From assembly GCA_020846335.1 (NCBI GenBank), contig JADLED010000256.1, positions 37,472 to 101,471 of the forward strand: a DNA stretch of 64,000 bases, read 5' to 3'. Origin of the DNA: Bacteroidia bacterium. Lineage in GTDB: Bacteria; Bacteroidota; Bacteroidia; B-17B0; Aurantibacillaceae. A program made the translations under genes and the position numbers. The notes under the pieces were generated by a model. The model worked only from the letters and a program-made list of their open reading frames with translations. It had not been told where the DNA came from and searched no databases. Shown here piece after piece: positions 48,302-49,061 of the stretch (position 1 is the stretch's first letter; every line of letters starts with the position of its first letter).

Positions 48302-48346
48302 AAAAAATCCGCCCCGATAGCTTTCGGGGCGGAGTGATTTTTTATG
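48302..48346 (-). terminator. Terminator-like hairpin after tRNA remnant 3, containing CCGCCCCGATAGCTTTCGGGGCGG
   Basis: Minus: ATCACTCCGCCCCGAAAGCTATCGGGGCGGATTTTTTT. Confidence 0.65.
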
Positions 48347-48410
48347 TGCTCCCCCCTGGGCTTCACGCCTCCGATTTCCTTCGGCGGATAAACTTCTCGC
48401 CAGGTTGGGT
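48347..48410 (-). pseudogene. Degenerate tRNA 3' fragment (remnant 3), interrupted by palindrome CGCCTCCGATTTCCTTCGGCGG
   Basis: TGCTCCC-CCTGGGCT matches 3' end of intact tRNA at 48844; also shares GGAGTGATTTTTTATGTGCTCCC with remnant 2. Confidence 0.55.
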
Positions 48411-48413
48411 AAA

Positions 48414-48447
48414 ATAAAAAACTCCGCTTGCGCGGAGTGATTTTTTA
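48414..48447 (-). terminator. Terminator-like hairpin after tRNA remnant 2
   Basis: ACTCCGC-ttg-GCGGAGT with T-run on minus strand. Confidence 0.6.
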
Positions 48448-48449
48448 TG

Positions 48450-48517
48450 TGCTCCCACCTGGGCTCGAACCAGGGACCCTCAGCCCCGATAGCTATCGGG
48501 GGAGTCTGATGCTCTAA
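48450..48517 (-). pseudogene. 3' partial tRNA(CAT) copy (remnant 2) with palindrome CCCCGATAGCTATCGGGG replacing anticodon-loop bases
   Basis: 35-bp identity to intact tRNA copy (GTGCTCCCACCTGGGCTCGAACCAGGGACCCTCAG) and then GAGTCTGATGCTCTAA; ATTAT replaced by the palindrome at 48484-48501. Confidence 0.85.
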
Positions 48518-48804
48518 GTGTACTTTAATTTAAGCTTTAACTGCATCTCAGGATATTTTATGAGATTGAAAATATAAACGCTGCTTTTCATCCGCTTTAT
48601 GTGCTTTTCTATTTTAAGTGCCTGAGAATAGGTTTCACATTCTATAGCTAATACTAAGCGCCAGTCTTCTGCTTTTGCTGTAAACCTATTCTCACCATAT
48701 TCGTGAGCATTGTGTTTCTTAATCCTTGACTCCAAATCCTGTTGACAAGCACCTATGTAATGACATTGAAGTTTTTCACTATACAATATGTAACAACAAA
48801 TCAT
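48514..48804 (-). CDS. Small GIY-YIG endonuclease, tRNA-associated
   Basis: MICCYILYSEKLQCHYIGACQQDLESRIKKHN...SQALKIEKHIKRMKSSVYIFNLI: GIY-YIG motif, conserved Arg and Glu positions; track ORF 48514..48852 extends into the tRNA so ATG at 48804 is preferred. Confidence 0.85.
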   Translation of the reverse strand: MICCYILYSEKLQCHYIGACQQDLESRIKKHNAHEYGENRFTAKAEDWRLVLAIECETYSQALKIEKHIKRMKSSVYIFNLIKYPEMQLKLKLKYT

Positions 48805-48807
48805 GGT

Positions 48808-48842
48808 ACAAAAAAAACCCCGGAATATTTCTCCGGGGTTCA
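48808..48842 (-). terminator. Terminator hairpin immediately 3' of the tRNA
   Basis: Minus: AACCCCGGAG-aaatatt-CCGGGGTTTTTTTT. Confidence 0.75.
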
Positions 48843-48843
48843 G

Positions 48844-48917
48844 TGCTCCCACCTGGGCTCGAACCAGGGACCCTCAGATTATGAGTCTGATGCTCTAACC
48901 GGCTGAGCTATAGGAGC
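48844..48917 (-). tRNA. tRNA-Met (CAT anticodon; tRNA-Ile2 with modified C34 not excluded)
   Basis: GCTCCTATAGCTCAGCCGGTTAGAGCATCAGACTCATAATCTGAGGGTCCCTGGTTCGAGCCCAGGTGGGAGCA folds as full cloverleaf. Confidence 0.92.
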
Positions 48918-48968
48918 GGTTAGTTTTTTGGCTTACGCCTATTTCAAGTTCTTCATCCAAACTTCAAC

Positions 48969-49061
48969 TCCGATAATTTTCGGAAGAGTTTGATGCTCCC
49001 TGCCTGCCGTTGCTCCGGCCTGCGCGACGGCAGGCAGGTAACCGGCTGAGCTATAGGAGCG
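48969..49061 (-). pseudogene. 5' partial tRNA(CAT) copy (remnant 4) interrupted by 40-bp palindrome and by TCCGATAATTTTCGGA
   Basis: CGCTCCTATAGCTCAGCCGGTTA | CCTGCCTGCCGTCGCGCAGGCCGGAGCAACGGCAGGCAGG | GAGCATCAAACTCT on minus strand. Confidence 0.8.
48999..49038. repeat. Palindromic element CCTGCCTGCCG...CGGCAGGCAGG inside tRNA remnant
   Basis: Near-perfect 11+ bp inverted repeat; splits GATGCTC|TAACCGG of the tRNA. Confidence 0.85.

Follow-up and report, generated by a model that had tools for sequence, protein, structure and literature searches.

Phage T4/T6 SegB is a free-standing GIY-YIG homing endonuclease. It causes a tRNA-nuclease segment to be amplified in tandem through homologous recombination; how its own genome is spared was called an open question (PMC13096335). 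In fungal mitochondria, mobile ORFs are found at the 3' ends of genes, namely at atp6 of Allomyces and at atp6, atp9, cox2, and nad3 of Glomus (PMC3630166). These two systems are the nearest precedents for the locus described here, in which a small GIY-YIG gene of a Bacteroidota genome lies next to a tRNA gene.

As with SegB, the nuclease gene is linked to tRNA genes. SegB, however, belongs to phage, is loosely linked (within 1000 bp) to tRNA clusters, and no hairpin-substituted tRNA copy has been described for it, whereas the Bacteroidota element is chromosomal, encodes 96 aa, is associated with one tRNA per element, and forms lineages that follow the tRNA isotype. As in the fungal mobile ORFs, a nuclease ORF is found where a complete gene ends, and a displaced duplicate of this 3' end lies downstream; the fungal ORFs occur at organelle protein genes and supply a foreign 3' end without any hairpin replacement, whereas the Bacteroidota element targets a tRNA, the displaced copy of which carries a hairpin that would disable it. 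Integrase elements at tRNA 3' ends likewise regenerate the tRNA and leave a partial copy at the other end, but the Bacteroidota element has no integrase, measures about 380 bp in all, and is marked by a hairpin-substituted copy and tandem arrays. Fold and size are shared with the small UPF0213 / YhbQ-YazA GIY-YIG proteins, which are the nearest solved structures; their canonical sister group (motif W-S-R-K-K-K-E-A-L-I) is not tRNA-linked in Bacteroidota. A Y1 HUH transposase as in RAYT/REP systems was not found, the sole ORF of the unit being the GIY-YIG gene. A search of open-access papers yielded no published description of the element, and the family looks like an undescribed group of small selfish elements which insert at tRNA genes and leave these intact.

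Organization of the locus

The window is the whole stretch of DNA that was analysed, 64 kb in length. On its minus strand the order is 5' tRNA-Met copy, intact tRNA-Met, terminator, GIY-YIG ORF, hairpin-bearing 3' tRNA copy, terminator, and second 3' remnant. The features are as follows, read from the sequence itself where no program is named.

48968..49061 (about), minus strand: upstream 5' tRNA copy, tRNA positions 1-22 followed by about 23-35; one hairpin each in D-loop (48999-49038) and anticodon loop (TTCCGAAAATTATCGGA)
48843..48917, minus strand: intact tRNA-Met (CAT) (ARAGORN; Rfam tRNA, 69.8 bits)
48810..48840, minus strand: intrinsic terminator of the tRNA, hairpin and T-run, immediately 5' of the ORF start
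48514..48804, minus strand: GIY-YIG nuclease ORF, 96 aa (Pfam GIY-YIG, E=4e-13)
48449..48517, minus strand: downstream 3' tRNA copy, tRNA positions 20-35 and 41-75, without the 5' acceptor strand
48484..48501, no strand assigned: hairpin CCCCGATAGCTATCGGGG, an 18-bp perfect palindrome separating the two identical pieces of the 3' copy
48411..48438, minus strand: second terminator hairpin, 3' of the tRNA copy
48346..48404 (about), minus strand: second 3' tRNA remnant, an older one, whose T-loop contains a foreign insert; another terminator follows

ARAGORN, Pfam, and sequence comparison confirmed the preliminary description of a GIY-YIG ORF between an intact tRNA(CAT) and a 3' piece of the same tRNA. 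The 3' copy agrees with the intact tRNA in two identical pieces of 16 nt (48502-48517) and 35 nt (48449-48483); the latter is the 35-bp identity reported before, and it lies far beyond what chance would give. It was also correct that the stop codon TAG of the ORF is part of the tRNA-derived TTAGAGC and that the reading frame is open upstream as far as the tRNA, where a GTG is located at 48852. A genome search with the window tRNA-Met returned the intact gene at 48843..48917 as the only copy of full identity in the assembly.

Three features went beyond the earlier reading: the hairpin substitution in the 3' copy, the upstream 5' copy with its two hairpins, and the second 3' copy with its terminator. 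The hairpin CCCCGATAGCTATCGGGG stands in place of ATAAT in the anticodon loop of the 3' copy, and the 16-bp core of the palindrome occurs at three sites only in the 4.3-Mb genome. Furthermore, a 34-nt direct repeat consisting of the tRNA 3' end and the sequence after it was found at 48432-48465 and 48329-48362. The same arrangement was seen again in single-contig genomes (L052, L129, L142, L193) and is therefore not an assembly artefact. The window's own genome harbors three small GIY-YIG genes, every one of them tRNA-linked.

Linkage to tRNA genes and empty sites

Loci were gathered by protein similarity from relatives, a species-level genome collection, and the whole phylum. The resulting set comprised 153 loci, some of them overlapping, with 137 distinct proteins. 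An intact tRNA on the same strand was present within 300 nt at 122 of the 153 loci, upstream of the gene at 106 and downstream at 16. The other 31 loci include 26 with clear flanking tRNA fragments (at one of these, two GIY copies enclose an intact tRNA), three with weak fragments only, and two truncated at the end of a contig. A tRNA of the opposite strand was not found beside any of these loci, and Rfam scans revealed no rRNA near the loci without a close tRNA. Rfam scans of the examined loci also returned no intron match that would indicate the catalytic core of a group I intron with a homing endonuclease. Within 300 nt of the gene the density of tRNAs was 67 times that farther out, as determined for 33 loci with long flanks. 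A fragment of the same tRNA was located 3' of the gene at 98 of the 107 loci having an upstream tRNA; at these loci the 3' end of the target is duplicated and displaced beyond the nuclease ORF, as is characteristic of mobile ORFs (mORFs). An enrichment of such genes at tRNA 3' ends with a partial copy on the other side, which the preliminary description had anticipated, was thereby found.

The truncation point of the downstream tRNA copy differs among loci, ranging from tRNA position 5 to about 60, and at least 13 tRNA isotypes are involved. A mirror-image form also exists, in which the gene comes after a promoter and a 5' tRNA copy and before the intact tRNA (Arg, Leu, Ser, Met). Matches to a family model were obtained in 263 of 393 sampled Bacteroidota genomes, and the 96-aa GIY-YIG gene is a member of a distinct Bacteroidota subfamily.

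An independent census with the Pfam model in 40 genomes yielded 62 small GIY-YIG genes, 26 of them tRNA-linked and 36 not; the proposition that all small GIY-YIG genes are tRNA-linked was rejected on these counts. Among 34 usable unlinked genes, 29 share the motif W-S-R-K-K-K-E-A-L-I and cluster together on the tree, separately from the main linked group, which neither shows this motif nor groups with the canonical UPF0213/YhbQ subfamily. The label linked or unlinked requires 5 changes on the tree as compared to 30 when shuffled. Because most of the unlinked genes group separately, tRNA linkage is a mark of the subfamily, and the fold alone is no predictor. The linkage claimed before thus holds for the subfamily of the window gene but not for small GIY-YIG genes in general, since the sister group in the same phylum is unlinked. 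E. coli yhbQ, the sole control from outside the phylum, has no neighbouring tRNA.

Orthologous loci were compared within two genera, presence and absence being scored between species, not strains. At the coaX-tRNA-Phe locus the element was present in 4 of 30 species, and at the locus of an enoyl-CoA-hydratase-like gene beside tRNA-Ala it was present in 6 of 26 loci of the same orientation. The HAD-tRNA-Met locus of the window was syntenic in 15 of 20 genomes checked, and 2 of these 15 harbor the element (G000 and G003 only). The tRNA was intact at orthologous loci whether the element was present or absent. Empty sites with one intact tRNA and no element, expected in relatives by the preliminary description, were therefore found at all three loci, and, as with free-standing homing endonucleases, there are orthologous alleles empty of the gene. 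With linkage, partial copies, and empty sites all found, the earlier proposal of a tRNA-parasitising element was upheld.

A filled locus (L193) and an empty one (L194), the flanks of which are 86% identical, have an identical tRNA-Phe, and the insertion is located 3' of the terminator. Their alignment shows about 380 bp added after the tRNA terminator and a 51-bp direct duplication consisting of the tRNA 3' end and the terminator; between the repeats lies the GIY-YIG ORF alone, without a gene for a site-specific recombinase. The target is not completed by a foreign, diverged 3' end as in mORFs, the tRNA-Phe being the same as in the empty allele; what is altered in the filled allele is the downstream copy, which carries the hairpin. 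The simple insertion into the D-arm that had been proposed found no support in that form, in view of this addition after the terminator with its duplication, the variable truncation position, and the mirror form. Phages or plasmids were also considered as a vehicle, and this was not supported: tblastn with the window protein, a single distant protein and as such a weak probe, gave no match to either.

Hairpin substitution and tandem arrays

The most distinctive part of the element is the hairpin substitution. In the downstream tRNA copy a defined segment is exchanged for a hairpin with the consensus TCCCGA-n-TCGGGA; the element unit is a single-domain GIY-YIG gene together with a truncated copy of the target tRNA altered in this way. 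The hairpin motif was present within 140 nt 3' of the gene at 100 of 149 loci (67%) as compared to 45 of 2501 control windows (2%). The replaced segment could be resolved at 75 loci, and 64 of the inserts start with [TC][TC]CCG. Loci of one isotype have often lost the same segment. In tRNA-Asp, CGAGTTCG or CGGGTTCG was lost at 13 of 14 resolved loci and a slightly longer segment at one. The anticodon arm was lost in tRNA-Val, ATAAT at four tRNA-Met loci, and ACT at four tRNA-Leu loci, a count which includes repeated views of one region. The segment differs between isotypes, with no shared motif evident among the replaced segments, and within tRNA-Asn it differs from locus to locus.

In 109 loci, 91 distinct hairpins were identified; their sequences vary and the pairing stays. 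The inner stem pairs 7 and 8, which are outside the criteria by which the hairpins were found, were formed in 74 of 85 and 43 of 52 cases, as compared to about 41 and 24 under random assignment of one side. Such covariation would be expected from selection on pairing, and repeated inverted duplication would also give it.

The possibility that the palindrome is an abundant genome-wide repeat which struck the tRNA copy by chance was rejected, because the motif follows the gene in 67% of loci as compared to 2% of control windows. The exact 16-mer is confined to three sites, and TCCCGA-n-TCGGGA occurs at 8 sites in the 4.3 Mb of the window's own genome, the reversed pattern at none. Away from tRNAs, this genome carries the hairpin at C33:7497, C122:14807, C126:5882, C313:11372, and C342:7263; the one in C33 has a T-run next to it and is terminator-like.

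Units of about 315-410 bp are also found in tandem, with five copies in L129 and seven in L142. Hairpin-bearing tRNA copies have furthermore been multiplied without the gene, as tRNA-Val units of 89 bp (L013, 840-1380) and as tandem hairpin-substituted tRNA-Asn units of 68 bp (L145, 1-130 and 1030-1560). At a locus orthologous to that of the window (L255 in G009), a tRNA-Met pseudo-copy without a GIY gene is located upstream of tRNA-Met; it has hairpins near the D-arm, anticodon loop, and T-loop and looks like a non-autonomous derivative. Hairpin-bearing pseudo-tRNAs are a hazard to automatic annotation: ARAGORN calls of Cys ACA and of Lys TTT with 81-95 nt (L013, L024, L089, L101) are likely spurious. 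Additionally, a gene encoding a four-helix protein of the 23S rRNA-intervening-sequence type (PF05635) was observed in the window's own genome (contig C71; L231, 105-545) on the same strand as, and downstream of, tRNA-Gly and tRNA-Leu, with the hairpin TCCCGAAAGCTTTCGGGA nearby; it is possibly another small gene settling beside tRNAs.

The loci L013 and L145 combine a small nuclease gene with a terminator and short structured repeats in tandem; in this they formally resemble type III toxin-antitoxin systems, and a harmful nuclease might be restrained by a transcribed pseudo-tRNA hairpin RNA. The resemblance is formal only. GIY-YIG enzymes are known as DNA nucleases, PADLOC gave no match, the repeats are mostly 3' of the gene, and the array form can be missing; such a module is very improbable.

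The predicted nuclease, its lineages, and the probable mode of spread

The 96-aa protein contains no separate DNA-binding domain. Its AlphaFold2 model is a confident GIY-YIG fold (mean pLDDT of 91), for which the best fold matches were UPF0213, SLX1, I-TevI, and UvrC, all with weak E-values; profile matches to solved structures were obtained with UPF0213 (3e-12) and SLX1 (E=4e-6). Of the catalytic residues, Tyr16, Gly18, and Glu66 are conserved in all of 30 homologues, and Tyr5 and Arg27 in nearly all. No match to a known defence or phage family was obtained. We infer that the predicted nuclease would cut DNA.

SLX1, one of the two closest solved relatives, is a structure-specific nuclease, which would suit the main rival to the explanation that we prefer. 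The nuclease would recognise the TCCCGA/TCGGGA hairpin extruded as a cruciform, cut there, and free the element, the tRNA-homologous ends of which would recombine into tRNA genes in a loosely RAYT/REP-like manner. The conservation of hairpin form rather than sequence, with covarying inner pairs, is consistent with this, and the nuclease-less hairpin-bearing tRNA copies (L255; arrays of L013 and L145) resemble non-autonomous derivatives. However, the same hairpins occur away from tRNAs too, and the hairpin stays intact in tandem copies; we consider this mode of mobility unlikely.

A tree of 132 proteins, based on few columns and with many unresolved forks, requires 37 changes of tRNA isotype, as compared to a mean of 94 after shuffling with none of 200 shuffles as low. 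For the subset with coded hosts, 32 changes of isotype were needed as compared to 46 of host family. When the best match was taken from another host family, it had the same isotype in 48 of 105 cases, with 11 expected. GIY identity was not significantly correlated with flank identity (Spearman -0.5 and 0.05): in one example, flank proteins are 93% identical and the GIY proteins 76%, and in another species pair the values are 78% and 84%. The protein lineages thus follow the tRNA isotype across host families, not host relatedness. This isotype fidelity may be due to the carried tRNA fragment rather than to protein specificity. Furthermore, the dN/dS of the GIY gene is about 0.1, mostly 0.06-0.15, and purifying selection acts on it.

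Purifying selection would also be expected of a host gene, and several species of a genus use the same orthologous tRNA locus. An old repair-type nuclease might have been inherited beside certain tRNAs, where unequal crossing-over produced pseudo-tRNAs that were later struck by dispersed palindromes. Presence at orthologous loci is patchy, however, host relatedness is uncorrelated, a separate unlinked GIY-YIG clade exists in the same phylum, and the same tRNA segment has been replaced precisely and repeatedly, as in the 13 of 14 tRNA-Asp loci with loss of CGAGTTCG/CGGGTTCG. This explanation is disfavoured and appears quite improbable.

Probably, the feature belongs to a family of Bacteroidota mobile elements that are very small (about 310-410 bp), spread in a homing-like manner, and use tRNA fragments as homology arms. 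The nuclease would introduce a DNA break in the cognate tRNA gene or close to it; repair would then copy a molecule bearing the element, with the tRNA fragment and the terminator serving as homology arms. Such break-driven copying would leave the element with a complete tRNA at one end and, at the opposite end, a tRNA copy that is displaced and disabled. The hairpin may ensure that this displaced copy neither acts as a tRNA nor is cut or removed by recombination. Tandem arrays and pseudo-tRNA arrays would then arise as the repeats recombine with each other, a segmental amplification as in SegB (PMC13096335).

A nuclease simply cutting the tRNA would cut its own host, because the intact tRNA-Phe is identical in filled and empty alleles. 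This is the main weakness of homing-like spread: the intact tRNA is unaltered, and self-cutting must be avoided otherwise. As a tentative possibility, a structure-selective GIY-YIG nuclease combined with a hairpin-substituted tRNA mimic as a cis-acting end could represent a new class of mobile elements. A disabled piece of the target, carried by the element, would then lead it to tRNA genes, and non-autonomous pseudo-tRNA derivatives would spread along with the element.

If the locus is indeed such an element, it would rank with the smallest known mobile elements that carry a nuclease, and its targets are genes that cells cannot afford to lose. Its effects on tRNA loci would include pseudo-tRNAs, tandem arrays, false tRNA calls, and ORFs running into tRNA sequence. 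Two questions would thereby become testable, namely by what means a nuclease tied to an essential gene leaves its own copy uncut and which role a conserved hairpin plays in a dead tRNA copy.
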